Assembly (NCBI GenBank): GCA_003551565.1
Contig: PUMZ01000169.1
Coordinates: 1-38,732, forward strand
Reading direction: 5' to 3'
DNA length: 38,732 nucleotides
Source of the DNA: Candidatus Brocadiaceae bacterium
Lineage (GTDB): Bacteria; Planctomycetota; Brocadiia; SM23-32
A program made the position numbers and the translations under genes. Below are positions 2,139 through 33,728 of the stretch, one piece after another (position 1 is the first letter of the stretch; each line of letters opens with the position of its first letter). The notes under the pieces were generated by a model. That model made no database searches, was not told the DNA's origin, and worked only from the letters and a program-made list of their open reading frames with translations.

Positions 2139-4277
2139 ATGGAATTCCAGCAACAACTTAAAGACCTGTCCCGCAACCTGTACTGGACCTGGCAACCGGA
2201 GATGATCGACATATTCCGCGACATCGATCCGGGACTCTGGCGCGCGGTGAACCACAACCCAATCGAGTTCCTGTCCCGGATATCACCGGAAAAACTGGAG
2301 GAAAAAGCCGACGATTTGGCGCTGAACGCGCGCATCAACCATGCCTTTCACCACCTGAAAAATTACCTCCAGGACGACATGACATGGGGCAACCTGCACG
2401 CCGCCGCTTTGCATGCCCATCCCGTAGCATATTTTTCGGCGGAATTCGGGCTCCACGAATCCTTGCCGCTCTATTCCGGCGGACTCGGCGTGCTGGCCGG
2501 CGACCATCTCAAAAGTGCCTCCGACCTCGGCGTCCCCGTGGTGGGAGTCGGTCTGTTCTACGCACAGGGCTACTTTAACCAGCGGATGACGGAAGACGGA
2601 TGGCAGACAGAAACATACTTTGCTTCCGATGTGAACAAACTCCCCATAAAAAAGGCGAAGGGAGGGGATGGGGCGCCCCTGGAAGTGGAGGTCCGCACCC
2701 GCACAAGCGCCATCAAGGCGCATGTATGGAGCGCCAGCGTCGGACGAAACAGCCTGGTTCTGCTCGATTCCGACGTCGGTTCCAATTCCCGGCAGGACCG
2801 CACGCTGACATCCACACTTTACGGCGGGGACGATTACACCCGCATACGCCAGGAACTGCTGCTCGGCGTCGGCGGGTTGCGGGCACTGCACAAACTGAAT
2901 ATCAACCCGGGCGTCCTGCACCTGAACGAAGGCCACAGCGCCTTTGCCATCCTGGAGCATGCACGCAAATTGATGGAACTGGAATCACGCCCGTTCGACG
3001 AAGCCAGGGAAAAAACTGCGCAAAAAGTCGTATTCACCACCCATACCCCCATGGAAAGCGGCCATGACAGGTTCCATCCGCACATGGTCAGTGAAGTCCT
3101 TGACCCCATGCGGAACGACCTCGACCTATCCCATGACCATTTGCTCTCGCTCGGACGCATCAATCCCCATGACCAGAACGAGCACTTCTGCATGACGGTG
3201 CTGGGACTGAAATCGTCCCGTTTCACGAACGCCGTCTCTTCCATCAATGCACGGACAACCTGGAAGATGTGGAATGCGATCCTGCCGGGCCCATCCCAAC
3301 ACGAAACGGCGATTAACCATATAACAAACGGAATACATGTCGCCTCATGGCTCGCCGTGCCCATGGCCCACCTTTATACGCGCTATCTGGGCAAAAACTG
3401 GGAAAAGAGGCTCTGCGATCCAGGGACATGGGAAGGACTGAAAAATCTGGATGATGACGAATTCTGGGAACATCTTCAGGTGCTGAAAGCACAGCTGATA
3501 AGGTTCATCCATCGTGAAGTTTGCAGCAAATGCGGCGGCAAATCCGGAAATCTGCTGACAGCCCATGAAAAACTCCGCCTCAGCTCTTCGACTCTGACCA
3601 TCGGGTTCTCCCGGAGATTTTCTGAATACAAAAGGGCCTTCCTCATTTTGAACGACCTGGAGCGCCTGGACCACATCGTCAACCATCCCGATCGTCCGGT
3701 CCAGATCATTTTCTCGGGGAAGGCGCACCCGGCGAACAAACAGGGCAAGACGCTGCTGCAAAAGATTATTAAAGTCAGTCGCGACCCACGCTTCCTCGGG
3801 AGGGTCATTTTCATTGAAGACTACGACATCAACGTTGGACGGCACCTCGTGCAGGGAGTCGACCTGTGGCTGAACACCCCCCGACGCCCCCTGGAGGCCT
3901 GCGGAACAAGCGGACAGAAGGCGGTACTGAACGGAGGATTGAATCTTTCGACCCTCGACGGGTGGTGGCCGGAGGCGTTTGACGGGAAAAACGGTTTTGC
4001 CATAGGAGACGACACGCAGCACTCCGATCCGGCAGAACAGGACAGGCGCGATACGGAATCACTCTACAAAACCCTTGAAGAGACCGTCGTCCCGATGTTT
4101 TACGACCGCAGGGAAAATGGAATTCCCCGCGAATGGATATCCTTCCAAAAACATGCTATCCATACAATCGCCCGGCGTTTCAATGCCAGCCGCATGGTTA
4201 AAGATTATACGCTCCATGCCTACCTGCCGGCCGTTGGCGCCAGGACCTGTTCGCATCGCAATGGCACCGAATACTGA
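2139..4277 (+). CDS. glgP: Alpha-glucan phosphorylase (GT35, short TIGR02094-like form)
   Basis: Predicted cytosolic phosphorylase that releases glucose-1-phosphate from glycogen or maltodextrin. The N-terminus (NLYWTW ... NPIEFLSRIS) matches the small domain that precedes the catalytic fold in this subfamily. It is followed by YFSAEFGLHESLPLYSGGLG and GVGLFYAQGYFNQ, then VFTTHTPMESGHDRF. The pyridoxal-phosphate site is EACGTSGQKAVLN, with the PLP lysine at about residue 594. This fits the phosphorylase signature except for Gln where Met is usual just before the Lys. At 712 residues it is shorter than many relatives of about 850. The start is fixed by homology, since the conserved N-terminal motif begins about 10 residues in, despite having no ribosome binding site. 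Confidence 0.92.
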   Translation: MEFQQQLKDLSRNLYWTWQPEMIDIFRDIDPGLWRAVNHNPIEFLSRISPEKLEEKADDLALNARINHAFHHLKNYLQDDMTWGNLHAAALHAHPVAYFSAEFGLHESLPLYSGGLGVLAGDHLKSASDLGVPVVGVGLFYAQGYFNQRMTEDGWQTETYFASDVNKLPIKKAKGGDGAPLEVEVRTRTSAIKAHVWSASVGRNSLVLLDSDVGSNSRQDRTLTSTLYGGDDYTRIRQELLLGVGGLRALHKLNINPGVLHLNEGHSAFAILEHARKLMELESRPFDEAREKTAQKVVFTTHTPMESGHDRFHPHMVSEVLDPMRNDLDLSHDHLLSLGRINPHDQNEHFCMTVLGLKSSRFTNAVSSINARTTWKMWNAILPGPSQHETAINHITNGIHVASWLAVPMAHLYTRYLGKNWEKRLCDPGTWEGLKNLDDDEFWEHLQVLKAQLIRFIHREVCSKCGGKSGNLLTAHEKLRLSSSTLTIGFSRRFSEYKRAFLILNDLERLDHIVNHPDRPVQIIFSGKAHPANKQGKTLLQKIIKVSRDPRFLGRVIFIEDYDINVGRHLVQGVDLWLNTPRRPLEACGTSGQKAVLNGGLNLSTLDGWWPEAFDGKNGFAIGDDTQHSDPAEQDRRDTESLYKTLEETVVPMFYDRRENGIPREWISFQKHAIHTIARRFNASRMVKDYTLHAYLPAVGARTCSHRNGTEY

Positions 4278-17712: not shown

Positions 17713-17740
17713 GTCTTTGGTTTATGGAATGCGGGTTAAC
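17713..17740 (-). repeat. Dispersed element J, copy after the usher-like gene
   Basis: Read on the minus strand it starts GTTAACCCGCATTCCATAAA and continues CCAAAGAC. Related copies lie at 4379-4402 (inverted), 28708-28738, 32345-32370 and 37451-37477 (inverted). It begins 11 nt after the stop codon of the 979-residue protein. Confidence 0.55.
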
Positions 17741-17750
17741 CGGCGCCGCT

Positions 17751-20690
17751 TCACTCCTCTTCCGGATCGATAACGCCTTCGTCAATGATCTGCACCGCGC
17801 GCTCGCGAAGCCGCACCTTAACGATCACCTCCCCCCGCTCTCCGGGTTCGACCTGCACATTCCTTTCCGGCGCCTCGATCACGTGATACGCGGGCAACCG
17901 GTCATCGTAAACCTTCAGGGTCCATTCTCCCGGCTGCAGGCGTTCGAACAGGAACTCGCCGCGGCGTCCGGTGAGCGTCCGCTGGAGCTCGCCGTCGCGC
18001 CGCATCTCCACAAGGATGCCGCTCAGCCCGCCCTCCGCGCCATCGCCGCGCCCGTCGCCCTGAAGGTTGTTGTTATTGTTGCCATCGCCCAGGATGTTGT
18101 TGTTGTGGAAGTTGTTATTGTTGTTCCACAGGTTGCTGTTATTGTTGCTGCCGTCACCCTGCAGGTTGATCCCCTCCGAAGGCTCACCATCTCCGTCCTG
18201 TCCATCGTTGACCGCCAGGACCACCCTGCCCGCCATCGAACCGCTCCGGGCCATCTCGATACGGACTTCTTTCGTGCGTCCGCCCTCGACTTCGACCCGG
18301 ATCGGCATCTCATCAAGCGGGACATACCCCGGCCCCACGCTCTGCACGTCCACCTTCAGCTCGTGCATGCCGGGCTCGAGGGCGGGGAAAATGAAACGTC
18401 CATCCCGGTCGGTCACCGCCGATGCGCCGTCGGCGAAGAGGATAACGTCCCGCATCACCCGCACGCGCCGTCCGTTGTCCTCCACCACAAGCACCCGGCC
18501 CTCCACGGCGCCGACCGATTGTTTTCTGCGCAGCGGCACGTCGAACGGTACCGTGTAGCCGACATACCCGCTGGTGCGGTCCTCGCGCCCGCGCCGTTCC
18601 GAATGCCGCACCCCCGCCCGGATGGCATGGCCGTTGGGGAGCGTGTAATTCGCCCCCGCACTGTAGCGGGCGCTGCCGCGGCGCTCTTCGTACTCGTAGC
18701 GGCTCACGTCCGCATTGACATGGAGATCGTTCCGCACATCCCAGCGCACCCTGCCGCCATAGCGTCGCGTGGTCCTGATGATCCGGTTGCTCGGATCAAC
18801 GTCGTATCGTTCCCCGTAATTCCCGAAGGCGGAGAGGCGCAGGCGCCGGTGCGGCCGGTAGGTGGCGGTCGAGCCGAAGCTCCACGCCCGGTCCCGCTCG
18901 TCAACAAGCCGGTCGTCCATCCGGCCGCGACGGGCATCGAGGCGCACGCTGCCCCATCCGAACGAGCGCGACAGGGCCGCCAGCGCCGCCTGTTCACGGT
19001 AGTCGAACTCCGGATCGGGATCCGGATTCCTGTCCTCGCGCCGAAATTCCTCCACCCCCAGCGACATCCTGTAAGCGTCGGCCAACCTCCAGCTCACACC
19101 AGCCCGATAGCGCTGCGAGCGCGGCGCCGTGCCGCGCTCGTCGTCGCGGTCCAGGTTCCGATCCCAAAGCGTGCAGGTCAGGTTCCCTCGCAAGGTCCCG
19201 TAGACCGGAAATGTCACGGTTCCGGAGCTGTACTCGGAATCGCGCGAACGGCCGTAATAATCCGGCCCGTAATGCCGGTGGCGCAGGGAATACCGCACGT
19301 CATCGAACAGCGCGCCGCGGTAACTCGCGCTGTAAGCATGGTCCCGCACCCCGCTGTCCCGGTTGCTTTCGCTGTAGCCGTACTCCAGCTCGAGGCTGTC
19401 GCCCGCGAAAAGCTCAAAATCGCCCAGCAGGCTGTAAACGCTGTCGCGCGCCGAAGGCAGGGCGCCGGATGCATCGACGGTGCGCCGCAGCACATTCAGC
19501 CGCAGGCTCGCCGCCTCGTGCGGCGTAACGCCCGCATACGCGCCCACGTCCCTGCGCTTCCTCCGTCGCCATGCGTCCTGAGCGTAAAACGTACCAGCCT
19601 CGAAACCGACACCCTCCGGATGGTAATGAATCCCCCCGCCGCGCGCGAATCGGGTGGTGGTCAGCGGCGAGAGCTCATACCGGCGGTCGCCAGCCTGGAC
19701 GGTGAAATCCGGCTCCGAATAGGTCGCACCAAATTGCTCCCTGCGCCCGTAAACGCCCACATCACGCTCATCGGGCGCGCGGAGAAAAAAATCCAGATGC
19801 CGCTTTCCCTCCTCGTCCAGGTAGCCCGAACCGCGCAGCACGGCCTGGACGCCCGTGTCGCCGTCGTCGAACAGAAAGTCCGTTCGCAGCTCGACGGGGT
19901 ATGTATGGCGCATCGGCTCCAGTTCGCTGATACGTGGCAGAACATCGATCCCGATGCTGAGTGTTTCGGAGACCATTTCATCCCTCATGCGGTCGTTGGC
20001 CGGCAGCGCCTCCGCCGTCAAGCGCACCCTGTGCGTGCGCGGGCGGTCCAGATCCCCATCGGTGCCCCCCTCGATCCGCACCAGCACGCTGCTGCCGGGC
20101 GCGAGCCGTTCCACCTCCTGCGGAATCACCCGCGCCGGAAACCCCTCCCGTTCGCTCACACTCAGCTCCACCGACAGCGTCACGTTGCCGCGGTTGATCA
20201 TCCGCGCCCGGATCTCGTAATCCTTCCCCGCCATCACCCTCTCCGGCGCATCGACGAACAGCAGCTCCAGCGCCTCCACGGGCAGAACGCGAACATCGAC
20301 CGTCTCGCTGTCGCTTATGGCGTCGTCGCGTTCACTGCGCACGCCATACATGATCTCATACACCCCCGCCCGGGCGCCGCGCGGCACCTGAACGGCGACC
20401 TGGCGGGCGAGCTCCTCACCCGGCTCCAGCACGAACCGGCCGGGCGGAACGATCGCATGCCAGCCGTCGGGAAGATCATACCATTCCTCGAACTCTTGCT
20501 CCTGTTCGGTCAGATTATGCACCCGGAACGAGAACGTCACAATGTGGCCGGACTCAGCCTCCTGCAACAGCGGCGTGACTGAATAGATATCGACACCCGG
20601 CCCCTGCGCAAGCAACGCCGTGGACGTTACTCCCAGCAGAACGGCGAAAACCATCAATTGCAGCAGGACTTTATCGATCATAAAAAACAC
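17751..20690 (-). CDS. Usher-like outer-membrane beta-barrel protein with Ig-like and Asn-rich regions
   Basis: A 979-residue secreted protein. A signal peptide (cleavage near STALLAQG, residues 24-30) is followed by two Ig/NEW3-like domains (about 33-135 and 140-250), with phrases such as FSFRVHNLTEQ and VLEPGEELARQVAVQVPRG. Residues 265-720 alternate polar and aromatic residues with repeated turn-rich charged loops, as in a large outer-membrane barrel. Two carboxypeptidase-regulatory/SdrB-like domains follow (about 727-812 and 818-965), with DRDGRFIFPALEPG and GRRGEFLFERLQPGEW. The second is interrupted by an Asn-rich insert. Position after a chaperone-like gene and four pilin-like genes suggests an usher, but standard usher motifs were not recognised. 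The GTG at 20690 or the ATG at 20681 may be the start. Confidence 0.72.
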   Translation of the reverse strand: MFFMIDKVLLQLMVFAVLLGVTSTALLAQGPGVDIYSVTPLLQEAESGHIVTFSFRVHNLTEQEQEFEEWYDLPDGWHAIVPPGRFVLEPGEELARQVAVQVPRGARAGVYEIMYGVRSERDDAISDSETVDVRVLPVEALELLFVDAPERVMAGKDYEIRARMINRGNVTLSVELSVSEREGFPARVIPQEVERLAPGSSVLVRIEGGTDGDLDRPRTHRVRLTAEALPANDRMRDEMVSETLSIGIDVLPRISELEPMRHTYPVELRTDFLFDDGDTGVQAVLRGSGYLDEEGKRHLDFFLRAPDERDVGVYGRREQFGATYSEPDFTVQAGDRRYELSPLTTTRFARGGGIHYHPEGVGFEAGTFYAQDAWRRRKRRDVGAYAGVTPHEAASLRLNVLRRTVDASGALPSARDSVYSLLGDFELFAGDSLELEYGYSESNRDSGVRDHAYSASYRGALFDDVRYSLRHRHYGPDYYGRSRDSEYSSGTVTFPVYGTLRGNLTCTLWDRNLDRDDERGTAPRSQRYRAGVSWRLADAYRMSLGVEEFRREDRNPDPDPEFDYREQAALAALSRSFGWGSVRLDARRGRMDDRLVDERDRAWSFGSTATYRPHRRLRLSAFGNYGERYDVDPSNRIIRTTRRYGGRVRWDVRNDLHVNADVSRYEYEERRGSARYSAGANYTLPNGHAIRAGVRHSERRGREDRTSGYVGYTVPFDVPLRRKQSVGAVEGRVLVVEDNGRRVRVMRDVILFADGASAVTDRDGRFIFPALEPGMHELKVDVQSVGPGYVPLDEMPIRVEVEGGRTKEVRIEMARSGSMAGRVVLAVNDGQDGDGEPSEGINLQGDGSNNNSNLWNNNNNFHNNNILGDGNNNNNLQGDGRGDGAEGGLSGILVEMRRDGELQRTLTGRRGEFLFERLQPGEWTLKVYDDRLPAYHVIEAPERNVQVEPGERGEVIVKVRLRERAVQIIDEGVIDPEEE
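18057..18175 (-). repeat. AAC/AAT triplet-rich repeat encoding an Asn-rich insert
   Basis: Imperfect GTT/ATT triplets on the plus strand encode runs of 2-5 Asn separated by NLQGDG and ILGDG (residues about 842-880). The insert falls in a surface loop of the last Ig-like domain. Triplet tracts of this kind can vary in length between strains. Confidence 0.85.
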
Positions 20691-30282: not shown

Positions 30283-30786
30283 ATGTTATTGAAAATCATA
30301 CTGCTGCTGACGCTGACGCCGATTGTTGAATTGTGGATCCTTTTTCGGATAGCCGGTGCAACCAGCCCTGGTTTTACGGTGTTGCTTGTGATCGTAACGG
30401 GCATCATCGGCGGGATCCTGGCGAAAATGGAGGGCCTCAGGGTGCTGGAACAGTTGCAAAGGGAACTTCAAGCCGGGCAACTGCCCGCCGGCCCGCTGCT
30501 CGACGGGGCAATGGTTCTGGTGGCCGGTGCGCTCCTGCTTACGCCGGGAGTGATCACCGATGCGGTGGGTTTCTCGTTGCTTGCCCCACCCTGGAGAAAT
30601 ATACTGAAAAAATGCCTGAAGAGAAAATTGAAAAAAATGATGGCGTCGGGGCGTGTGCGGATGTACAAAGATATGGGATTCGGCCCCATCCATCGCACCC
30701 CCCCGCCGGGAGCCCCGCCACTGGAAAACGACAACGACGACGAGGAGGGAGAACATGAGAACCACCGCGAAAGGCGCAACCAGTAA
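30283..30786 (+). CDS. fxsA: FxsA family membrane protein
   Basis: A small inner-membrane protein of 167 residues. It has the family start LLTLTPIVELWILFRIAG, a second helix GFTVLLVIVTGIIGGILAK, and a third around GAMVLVAGALLLTPGVITD, which carries the conserved LLLTPGxITD motif. The tail is basic then acidic (NDNDDEEGEHE). The E. coli member is known for relieving phage T7 exclusion when overproduced; its normal role is unclear. The last 32 nt overlap the next gene. Confidence 0.92.
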   Translation: MLLKIILLLTLTPIVELWILFRIAGATSPGFTVLLVIVTGIIGGILAKMEGLRVLEQLQRELQAGQLPAGPLLDGAMVLVAGALLLTPGVITDAVGFSLLAPPWRNILKKCLKRKLKKMMASGRVRMYKDMGFGPIHRTPPPGAPPLENDNDDEEGEHENHRERRNQ

Positions 30787-32308
30787 GGACATCTCACCCG
30801 GCAGCCGCAAATGCCCGGGAGAGAACTACGAGGTCACTCCGGCCATATGCACCGCTCGGCAGGCCAACAATTACGCAAAATGCCTGCTTTGCTCGTTTTA
30901 TTCAGGAGATGCAAACGACCTGGCCACGGGCGATCCGAGGATCAAAAAGAGCATCTTCCGTACAAACGTTATCGCGGGTGAAGTGCCGGCGGAGATCAAT
31001 GAATATGTCATGCGGAAGCTGGGCGCCGCCGTGGGCCAGTTCATCAAGGCGCACAGCAACGGAAAAACCCCTGCGGTCATAGCCTGCGACAGACGCGAGA
31101 ACTCCAGGAATCTCAGCCGCATTTTCGGAGAAGGCATGAAGTCCGCGGGGATGCATGCCGTCCACCTCGGCCCTGCCATGCCGGATATGCTCCGGTATGC
31201 CATGATCGAACACGAGATGAGTGCAGCACTGTTTGTCTCCGGGTGCGGAGCCAGGCTGGAAGTCAACGGTGTGCGGATCATTGACCGCGACGGCAGACCC
31301 TTGCTGTTCAATACCGGTATCGAAAAAATCGGGGTGATCGCACGCCGCATGAAGCCGGGCAGATCGCCCTCGCACGGCCGGAGCGACACCCTCAGGATTC
31401 TGCCCGATTACCAGGCTTTTATGATTGAACGGGCGCCCCAATTGCATGCACTGAAAGTCGTTTTAGACGGATCCTACGGGATAGGCGGAGAGATTATTCC
31501 CTATGTCCTGGCCAAAACACCGTTAAAAGTCATCAGATCCCGCTGCGAGCCCGACGGCCGGTCCGAATTGCTGGGACTGCGCTTCCCCGCCGGCCAGGTC
31601 AACACCTCCATGCAGCAGACCATCAGGTCGGAAGAAGCCCACCTGGGCATGGCGACCGATTACGACAGCGATCTGTGTGTGTTTTATGACGAAAAGGGAC
31701 GGGCCCTGCGCAATGACATCGCCGCCGCCCTGATAGCACGCGAAATTCTGGTTCTCAAGCCGGGTTCGAGGATTGCATACGACCTGCGTGCAAGTGCTGC
31801 GTTCAGAGAGGAAATACTGCGCGGAGGCGGACAAGCGCTGCGCACCAGCCCGGTTCCGGGAAGGATGAACGAGGCCGTCATCGCCAAAGGCGCCGAATAC
31901 GCATTCGACCTCAGCGGAAGGCACCTGTTCAAGGCCTTCAAGGGCGGCGAATCCCCGCTGATGGCGCTGATGTTGCTTTGTTCCGCCACACAGCGGCAAC
32001 AAAAACCGCTCTCCGGCCTCGCGGAAAAGGTGTACCGCTATGCCTACAGCGGTGTCCTGAGCCATGAAATGCCCACTCCTGAAAAAGCCGCCTCCGCCCT
32101 TGAAGACCTGGCGGCCGAGTTCCAGGATTGCGAAAAAGACGATATGGATGGATTGACATACAGGTTTCCGTCGTGGTGGTTCTATATCAAAAACAAACCC
32201 GGCTCCCGCATCATCGATCTGTGCGTGGAAGGGCGCACACAGGAGGAAGAAAGGACCGGTCGCCACAGGGTCGAACAGATCATCCGCGGGCATCAAAACC
32301 AGCGGTAA
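30755..32308 (+). CDS. Phosphohexomutase-fold protein with degenerate active site and N-terminal Cys cluster
   Basis: A 517-residue protein with the four-domain layout of alpha-D-phosphohexomutases (ManB/Pgm type): ACDRRENSRNLSRIFGEGM, HALKVVLDGSYGIGG, a metal-loop region and a C-terminal phosphate-site region. All four signature motifs are changed. TASHNP reads VSGCGA (161-166), DGDADR reads DYDSDL (302-307), ExSGH reads DLSGRH (385-390), and RPSGTEP reads KNKPGSR (479-485). The catalytic phosphoserine is therefore absent. Four N-terminal cysteines (20, 32, 43, 46) suggest a metal site. I start it at ATG 30755, with GAGGAGGGAG upstream, inside the end of fxsA; the ORF-track start 30653 is unsupported. 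A binding or regulatory role is inferred. Confidence 0.75.
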   Translation: MRTTAKGATSKDISPGSRKCPGENYEVTPAICTARQANNYAKCLLCSFYSGDANDLATGDPRIKKSIFRTNVIAGEVPAEINEYVMRKLGAAVGQFIKAHSNGKTPAVIACDRRENSRNLSRIFGEGMKSAGMHAVHLGPAMPDMLRYAMIEHEMSAALFVSGCGARLEVNGVRIIDRDGRPLLFNTGIEKIGVIARRMKPGRSPSHGRSDTLRILPDYQAFMIERAPQLHALKVVLDGSYGIGGEIIPYVLAKTPLKVIRSRCEPDGRSELLGLRFPAGQVNTSMQQTIRSEEAHLGMATDYDSDLCVFYDEKGRALRNDIAAALIAREILVLKPGSRIAYDLRASAAFREEILRGGGQALRTSPVPGRMNEAVIAKGAEYAFDLSGRHLFKAFKGGESPLMALMLLCSATQRQQKPLSGLAEKVYRYAYSGVLSHEMPTPEKAASALEDLAAEFQDCEKDDMDGLTYRFPSWWFYIKNKPGSRIIDLCVEGRTQEEERTGRHRVEQIIRGHQNQR

Positions 32309-32390: not shown

Positions 32391-33728
32391 ATGGACAAGA
32401 CATTCCATATCGTGACATTCGGCTGCCAGATGAACAAGCTCGACAGCGAGTTGCTCCGGGCCGCGCTTGAAAAAAACGGAATGCGACCGGTCCGGGCCCC
32501 TTCCGATGCCGACGTGCTTATCTACAATACGTGCAGCGTGCGGCAACATGCCGAAGACAGGGTGCTCTCGCACCTGGGCGGGTGGCGCAAACGGGCAGAG
32601 GCCGATTCCGACTTTATCCTCGGTGTGGTGGGCTGCATGGCGCAGAGACTGGGCGATGAGATCCGGCAACAATTCCCTTTCGTGCGCCTCCTGTGCGGCA
32701 CGCGCTCGTTTCTGAACGTGCCGGAATACATCGGGAAAATATCCAGCACCGGCCGGGCGGTCACCGCAACCGGAGACCGGCCGATACGAATCGAGCGCGA
32801 CCCCGCCATGCGTTCGGAGCCTCATCACGCCTACGTGAGCATCATGCGGGGATGCAGCAATTTCTGCACGTATTGTATTGTCCCGCATGTCAGAGGCCCC
32901 GAAAGAAGCCGCCCTGAAACCGAGATTGTCGATGAAGTGCAACGCCTCACAGCCGACGGTGTCGCCGAAGTCACACTGCTGGGCCAGAACGTTAATGCCT
33001 ACGGACGGCACAAGAATCACAGCGACGGCGCCGAAGGCGGTCTGCCACGGCTGCTGGAACGGGTCAACGCGATCGAAAACATCAAACGCGTGCGATTCGT
33101 GACCAACCACCCCAAAGATATGACGGAGGACATTCTGCGGAGTGTGGCGGACAATGAAAAGGTCTGCGAACACCTGCATATGCCGATCCAGAGCGCATCC
33201 GACAGGGTGCTGAAGGCCATGAACAGGAGATATACCCGCAATCACTACCTGAACACCGTGGAGAAGGCCCGGCGCATAATCCCCGGCATCGCCGTCTCCA
33301 GCGATTTCATCGTGGGCTTTCCGGGCGAGAGCGATTCGGATTTCGAAGATACGCTCGCCCTGCTGCGTAGCGTGCAGTTTCACCAAAGCTACATTTTCCG
33401 CTACTCGCCCCGACCGGGCACGGACGCCGTACAGCTCGCTGACGACGTGCCGGATCAGGTGAAACGTGAGCGTCAGCAGGCGCTGCTCGCCGCCCAGAAA
33501 CAGGTGGATATCCGGCGACGCAACGGGTTGGTCGGCGAAACGCTCGAGGTCATGTGCCACGGCCACAACACCCATCGCCCCGAAGAAGGCCGGCTGATCG
33601 GACGCTCCCGTCGCAGCGATATTGTTGTCTTCGATGGCTGCAATAAGGGGAAGATTAACGCCGGAGACACGCGCCATGTCACCATAGAAAAGGCGACGGC
33701 ATTGACTCTGTTCGGGCGGATCGGCTAA
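32391..33728 (+). CDS. miaB: tRNA-2-methylthio-N6-isopentenyladenosine synthase MiaB
   Basis: Radical-SAM methylthiotransferase that adds the 2-methylthio group to i6A37 of tRNAs reading UNN codons. The N-terminal UPF0004 domain has the second-cluster cysteines Cys12 (FGCQMN), Cys48 (NTCSVR) and Cys82 (GCMAQR). The radical-SAM site is CSNFCTYC (Cys155, 159, 162). VTLLGQNVNAYG and a C-terminal TRAM domain follow. At 445 residues it is full length. No strong ribosome binding site precedes the ATG. The glycerate kinase gene starts 47 nt after its stop. Confidence 0.96.
   Translation: MDKTFHIVTFGCQMNKLDSELLRAALEKNGMRPVRAPSDADVLIYNTCSVRQHAEDRVLSHLGGWRKRAEADSDFILGVVGCMAQRLGDEIRQQFPFVRLLCGTRSFLNVPEYIGKISSTGRAVTATGDRPIRIERDPAMRSEPHHAYVSIMRGCSNFCTYCIVPHVRGPERSRPETEIVDEVQRLTADGVAEVTLLGQNVNAYGRHKNHSDGAEGGLPRLLERVNAIENIKRVRFVTNHPKDMTEDILRSVADNEKVCEHLHMPIQSASDRVLKAMNRRYTRNHYLNTVEKARRIIPGIAVSSDFIVGFPGESDSDFEDTLALLRSVQFHQSYIFRYSPRPGTDAVQLADDVPDQVKRERQQALLAAQKQVDIRRRNGLVGETLEVMCHGHNTHRPEEGRLIGRSRRSDIVVFDGCNKGKINAGDTRHVTIEKATALTLFGRIG

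Follow-up and report, generated by a model that had tools for sequence, protein, structure and literature searches.

A Class-Wide Four-Cysteine Phosphohexomutase Whose Catalytic Motifs Have Degenerated in One Planctomycete Lineage

We find that a gene in the window, the whole 38,732-nucleotide stretch of Planctomycetota DNA analyzed here, encodes an alpha-D-phosphohexomutase (PHM) that has lost most of its catalytic residues, is maintained by purifying selection across its family, and retains an N-terminal four-cysteine (Cys4) module shared with catalytically intact orthologues throughout its class. The window comes from a draft genome whose near relatives include the MAGs M55B116, CSMAG_1167, and SM23_32. 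Our favored explanation, which we consider reasonably probable, is that an ancestral Cys4-containing phosphomannomutase/phosphoglucomutase (PMM/PGM) was displaced, lost catalysis, and was kept for a noncatalytic role linked to the module.

Results

The Window Gene Encodes a Phosphohexomutase Fold

The initial annotation had read from the sequence an open reading frame at 30755-32308, the motif replacements VSGCGA, DYDSDL, DLSGRH, and KNKPGSR, and cysteines at residues 20, 32, 43, and 46, and all of these are present as claimed.

30755..32308, + strand: pseudo-phosphohexomutase gene (Cys4-module alpha-PHM, catalytic motifs lost), 517 aa plus stop, ATG start
30743..30748, + strand: possible ribosome-binding site AGGAGG, six bases 5' of the ATG at 30755
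30950..31312, + strand: PGM_PMM_I domain (PF02878), residues 66-186

The AGGAGG sequence sits within the codons of the upstream gene fxsA, so its presence may be coincidental. The protein has the four-domain alpha-D-phosphohexomutase fold: Pfam matches it to PF02878 (1.6e-14) and PF02879 (2.4e-8), both above cut-off, with PGM_PMM domain III falling under its cut-off (16.9 vs. 20.7 bits); a sequence search of solved structures (PDB) matches X. citri PGM at 6.7e-32; and an AlphaFold model computed with eight orthologues as input (pLDDT 81, pTM 0.78; about 60 pLDDT in the Cys module region) has 5bmn (Xanthomonas PGM) as its best Foldseek match (3.9e-37, TMt 0.89). Against the PMM/PGM equivalog NF007088 the protein scores 180 bits, below the curated cut-off of 618; a class member with intact motifs (L062) also stays under it, though with a much higher score of 511 bits. 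Annotation based on the fold would name these genes phosphomannomutase despite the absent nucleophile.

Most, Not All, Active-Site Residues Are Replaced

The arginine of the DIRG motif is a catalytic residue, and the window protein has an alanine in its place. The active site was mapped onto X. citri PGM, from which the roles of all other residues were taken (PMC6443537).

30962..30979, + strand: (A/S)YDIRG position, reads TNVIAG; catalytic Arg replaced by Ala74
31235..31255, + strand: loop I, phosphoserine loop VTASHNP, reads VSGCGAR; Ser97 replaced by Cys164
31658..31675, + strand: loop II, metal loop DGDxDR, reads DYDSDL; three Asp kept, Arg replaced by Leu
31907..31924, + strand: loop III, sugar loop ELSGHY, reads DLSGRH; Glu replaced by Asp, Ser kept, His replaced by Arg389
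32189..32218, + strand: loop IV, phosphate loop RKSNTEPLLR, reads KNKPGSRIID

With the nucleophile Ser97 (X. citri numbering) replaced by Cys164, the window protein has no phosphorylatable serine at this position. Loop III combines a conservative change, Glu320 to Asp385, with replacement of the candidate general base His324 by Arg389, and in loop IV the residues R414, S416, N417, T418, and R423 have become K479, K481, P482, G483, and D488. Judged from these substitutions, the joint loss of the nucleophile, the DIRG arginine, the general base, and the phosphate anchor should abolish mutase activity, and we would expect the protein to be inactive as a mutase in vitro. The three metal-ligand aspartates (D302, D304, and D306), the sugar-contact serine (Ser322, here Ser387), and Arg280 of X. 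citri PGM (here Arg345) are retained, so some residual or altered activity is possible. The proposal that all four motifs had been lost therefore stands for loops I and IV, is overstated for loop II with its intact aspartates, and is partly overstated for loop III, where Ser387 persists and the glutamate has become Asp385.

Motif Loss Spans One Clade of the Class

Orthologues of the Cys4-PHM gene are found in 67 of 75 class genomes (E<=1e-30). Tabulating the motifs of about 70 members reveals three states: degenerate in every member of the window's family (f1), partly degenerate in its sister family f2 (represented by genome G009) and in f4 (G011), and intact in the rest. Eight of the nine f1 genomes carry the gene, which is degenerate in all eight, spanning six genera. 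The nucleophile position is occupied by Cys in all three members of the window's genus (SGC[GHN]A) and by Gly in the other f1 genera with loop I covered (GGGNYA), and the metal loop of three other f1 genera reads D/D/E or D/A/E. Motif loss is partial in f2, where the serine and DGD are still present, and in f4 the details of the loss are independent. Class members outside these three families are intact (VTASHNP, DGDADR, ELSGHY, and RKSNTEP), apart from two f7 genomes and a few single substitutions, and the serine nucleophile is found in all class members outside the degenerate families where loop I is covered. It had been suggested that close homologues with intact motifs would point to simple decay; degeneracy extends to every one of the closest homologues (68, 48, and 37-40% identity), and one has to go to other families of the class to meet intact motifs. 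Two genomes, G095 and G097, have large PHM ORFs that were considered as possible degenerate comparators; these proved to be GlmM-like with intact motifs.

Families f1, f2, and f4 form one clade in a tree computed with the motif and module columns deleted (99/92; f1+f2, 98/92), and the same clade is recovered with these columns included. Its survival of the deletion speaks against degenerate sequences having been drawn together by long branches or by the motifs themselves, with some residual doubt left by the long branches, which also blur the precise sequence of losses. On this tree, a single loss at the root of the clade could account for loops III and IV, whereas the nucleophile serine requires two losses or more, in f4 and in f1.

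Two other irregularities appear outside the inactive clade. The f7 genomes G067 (L141) and G044 (L047) show early motif drift (NDDVRG, DYDADM, GLSGHY; DLYGRY), and their DYDADM resembles the DYDGDM of the window's genus, possibly a convergent loss in progress. In drafts of f5, an orthologue with intact motifs is split, by an in-frame TGA just past loop I in one genome (L016, G059) and into two ORFs in another (L148, G040), reflecting either sequencing error or real disruption.

The Degenerate Gene Is under Purifying Selection

Between the window genome and G002, the pseudo-mutase has 66.7% amino acid identity, with pN of 0.205 and pS of 0.782, and miaB has 67.0% identity, with pN of 0.208 and pS of 0.826; the constraint on the pseudo-mutase thus equals that on a conserved gene for tRNA modification. 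Its dN/dS between the window genome and G001 is about 0.14, and the reading frame is open, with no internal stops, in eight f1 genomes. The degenerate gene is therefore kept by purifying selection over this divergence. One f1 genome, G003 (85% complete), does not have it, and the gene may be nonessential or merely unassembled there.

The window genome is a draft in 416 contigs, 88% complete and with 6.5% contamination, as one would want for an explanation by simple decay, in which the gene is a relic open by chance or an artefact of sequencing or assembly in a single genome. Against this, the same state recurs without internal stops in eight of eight independent f1 genomes from six genera, pN/pS equals that of miaB, synteny with miaB is kept, and the four cysteines are invariant. 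We regard decay or artefact as exceedingly improbable and reject it.

An Invariant Four-Cysteine Module Predates the Loss of Catalysis

30806..30892, + strand: Cys4 module, C-x11-C-x10-C-x2-C, residues 18-46
30812-30814, + strand: Cys20
30848-30850, + strand: Cys32
30881-30883, + strand: Cys43
30890-30892, + strand: Cys46

Each full-length class orthologue, motif-intact or dead, carries a module with the consensus CPGExYxISxxxCxxRQxxxYPKCxxC, in which the four cysteines and one arginine are invariant (66/66 orthologues) and the cysteine spacing is constant. The module has no match in Pfam. In 14 genomes we saw no convincing copy on another gene, the module occurring once per genome and on this gene only, and none was seen in phylum-level outgroups or PDB relatives. 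The initial annotation had described it as an added N-terminus in connection with inactivation, an association that is overturned by its class-wide distribution: the module predates the loss of catalysis. The same distribution, with its fixed spacing, rules out an N-terminus acquired by chimeric gene fusion, and the single copy on this gene alone rules out a mobile domain in the 14 genomes.

The module has diverged very differently from the rest of the protein. Its identity between f1 and active orthologues (0.53) is the same as that among the active families (0.53), while identity falls to 0.26 against 0.89 in the five catalytic motifs and to 0.30 against 0.55 in the protein body, marking the module as what selection has preserved unchanged in the dead protein. 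The Cys4 module is a candidate metal-binding site.

A Second, Intact Mutase Accompanies the Degenerate Gene

The window genome also encodes a separate PMM/PGM with intact motifs (L002 on contig C155; TASHNP/DGDAD/EHSGH/RKSGTE). Genes of this type are found in 10 of 10 genomes of the window's order, including G003, which has no Cys4 gene, vs. 0 of 63 other class genomes (E<=1e-60); as the order is a single lineage, the contrast amounts to little more than one evolutionary event and constitutes a pattern rather than proof. Outside the order, G011 has another PHM gene with intact loops I-III, and several families with intact copies have few other PHMs alongside the Cys4 gene. The L002-type mutase could, by its motifs, supply the catalytic activity in the window's order.

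An alternative without displacement would have the two genes independent of each other, with the correlation reflecting lineage history and the motif loss having some other cause. The f1 and f2 genomes being one lineage fits this, as does the early drift in the f7 genomes G044 and G067, whose other PHM genes were counted by domain model only. We consider it unlikely, since every genome with a fully degenerate copy whose PHM content was examined, G011 included, has at least one other intact-loop PHM besides GlmM.

Neighboring Genes

30283..30786, + strand: fxsA, upstream; 32-nt overlap (30755-30786); a neighbor only within the window's genus
32391..33728, + strand: miaB-like radical SAM gene (Radical_SAM + UPF0004), 82 nt downstream

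The overlap with fxsA is as originally described and is specific to the window genome; the G002 pair of ORFs either meets end to end or shares about 4 nt. Other genera have a gene other than fxsA upstream, ruling out a general functional link to it. The pairing with miaB is kept in all six other f1 genomes with contigs reaching far enough (G001, G002, G005, G006, G007, and G008), yet is absent elsewhere in the class, so it is not tied to the Cys module. In other families, a GDP_Man_Dehyd/epimerase gene is a neighbor at seven loci, which is consistent with a catalytic ancestral role.

The miaB-like gene has a weak C-terminal TRAM match (18.9 bits vs. a cut-off of 21). Elsewhere in the window, the ORFs at 17724-20579 (+, 952 aa) and 75-1679 (+, 535 aa) have no Pfam match, and 2139-4274 (+) encodes a carbohydrate phosphorylase with DUF3417, of the glucan phosphorylase type.

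Discussion

A Proposed Displacement with Retention for a Noncatalytic Role

Under the favored explanation, displacement followed by retention, the gene would be a vertical descendant of a class-wide PMM/PGM with a unique N-terminal Cys4 module. The ancestral protein would have been bifunctional, and in one lineage a second mutase would have taken over its catalytic job. Sugar and phosphate handling would have been lost first, the state seen in f2, and the serine nucleophile later, with purifying selection retaining the protein for a noncatalytic role that needs both the module and the PHM scaffold. The module would hold a metal in a structural capacity, with Zn2+ the likeliest candidate and an Fe-S cluster a possible one, and may dock the protein on a partner: another PHM, the c-di-AMP cyclase CdaA, or a component of the miaB-linked operon. 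The PHM body, whose D302/304/306 can perhaps still bind a divalent metal, would then serve as a scaffold or regulator. DAC genes are present in 15 of 15 class genomes tested, so CdaA is allowed as a partner and is not discriminated from the other candidates.

The description of the protein as a repurposed, noncatalytic family member is well supported by the f1-wide degeneracy, the purifying selection, and the paralogue with intact motifs. What the protein does is harder to read. Loop III is unusually conserved within f1 (identity 0.72, with an invariant shifted His in DxxG[RL]H), a hint of a retained cleft function, and together with the three kept aspartates and the cysteine at the nucleophile position throughout the window's genus it would suit a neofunctionalized enzyme whose cleft binds Mg2+ and a ligand for other chemistry, such as phosphoryl transfer by Cys164, a phosphatase, or a bisphosphate-type reaction. 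However, the variation between genera at the nucleophile position makes a new enzyme less likely: the other f1 genera have Gly there and altered metal loops, with no common new catalytic set, and conservation within f1 is lowest in loop IV (identity 0.25). We therefore find this reading quite improbable.

The retained fold, Arg345, Ser387, and Asp triad are also what a ligand sensor would keep, one that no longer turns over a sugar phosphate or bisphosphate and still binds and reports it in the manner of PGM5, an inactive protein that binds substrate (PMC7761743). The substrate-binding site kept in PGM5 is not kept here, however, and the poor conservation of the phosphate loop, which anchors the ligand and is rewritten with changes of charge (e.g., R423 to D488 in both the window genome and G002), makes a sensor less likely; we rate it as rather unlikely. 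Of the initial suggestion of a sensor or scaffold, the sensor is thus weakened, and a scaffold or partner-binding role fits better.

Pseudoenzymes are usually duplicates of a still-active enzyme; here, it appears to be the vertical orthologue of a central carbohydrate enzyme that was demoted once another mutase had taken over, which suggests a second job for the ancestor. As both intact and dead orthologues are available for comparison, any function left to the dead ones is a noncatalytic function, and the invariant Cys4 module, which Pfam lacks, provides a handle on it. We tentatively entertain the broader idea that this is an unnamed family, a class-wide PMM/PGM with a metal-binding Cys4 docking module that has always had a second, noncatalytic function, and that one clade of three families handed over catalysis and keeps the module-linked regulation. 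If so, the dead lineage would be a natural separation-of-function mutant.

Comparison with Known Systems

The best profile and structure matches are the actinobacterial-type PMM/PGM (NF007088, PRK09542) and the X. citri PGM (5bmn), which have the four-domain fold in common with the window protein; the latter differs from both in being without the nucleophile serine, the DIRG arginine, the general-base histidine, and the phosphate loop, and from PDB relatives in its Cys4 module. A functionally diverged alpha-PHM subfamily, the Glc-1,6-bisphosphate synthase of cd05800 (Slr1334; PMC9426568), is catalytic, whereas the present protein is without the catalytic residues. GlmM, itself a PHM, binds and inhibits the c-di-AMP cyclase CdaA/DacA (PMC8573169, PMC6368335), providing a precedent for a PHM body as an inhibitory protein-protein partner; GlmM remains an active enzyme, and the CdaA interaction known for GlmM is only proposed for the present protein. 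A search of the open-access literature found no bacterial PHM without the catalytic serine.

The closest parallel is PGM5 (aciculin), a catalytically inactive vertebrate paralogue of PGM1 that has a structural role and binds Glc-1-P (PMC7761743), and the likeness lies in a noncatalytic PHM being retained for a structural role. PGM5 is a vertebrate duplicate in which substrate binding and the phosphoserine are kept, whereas the window protein is without the nucleophile and the phosphate loop, has the Cys module, and is itself the vertical orthologue and not a newcomer. PGM5 is thus a known inactive PHM, and the present clade goes further, as a vertical orthologue carrying an undescribed Cys4 module.
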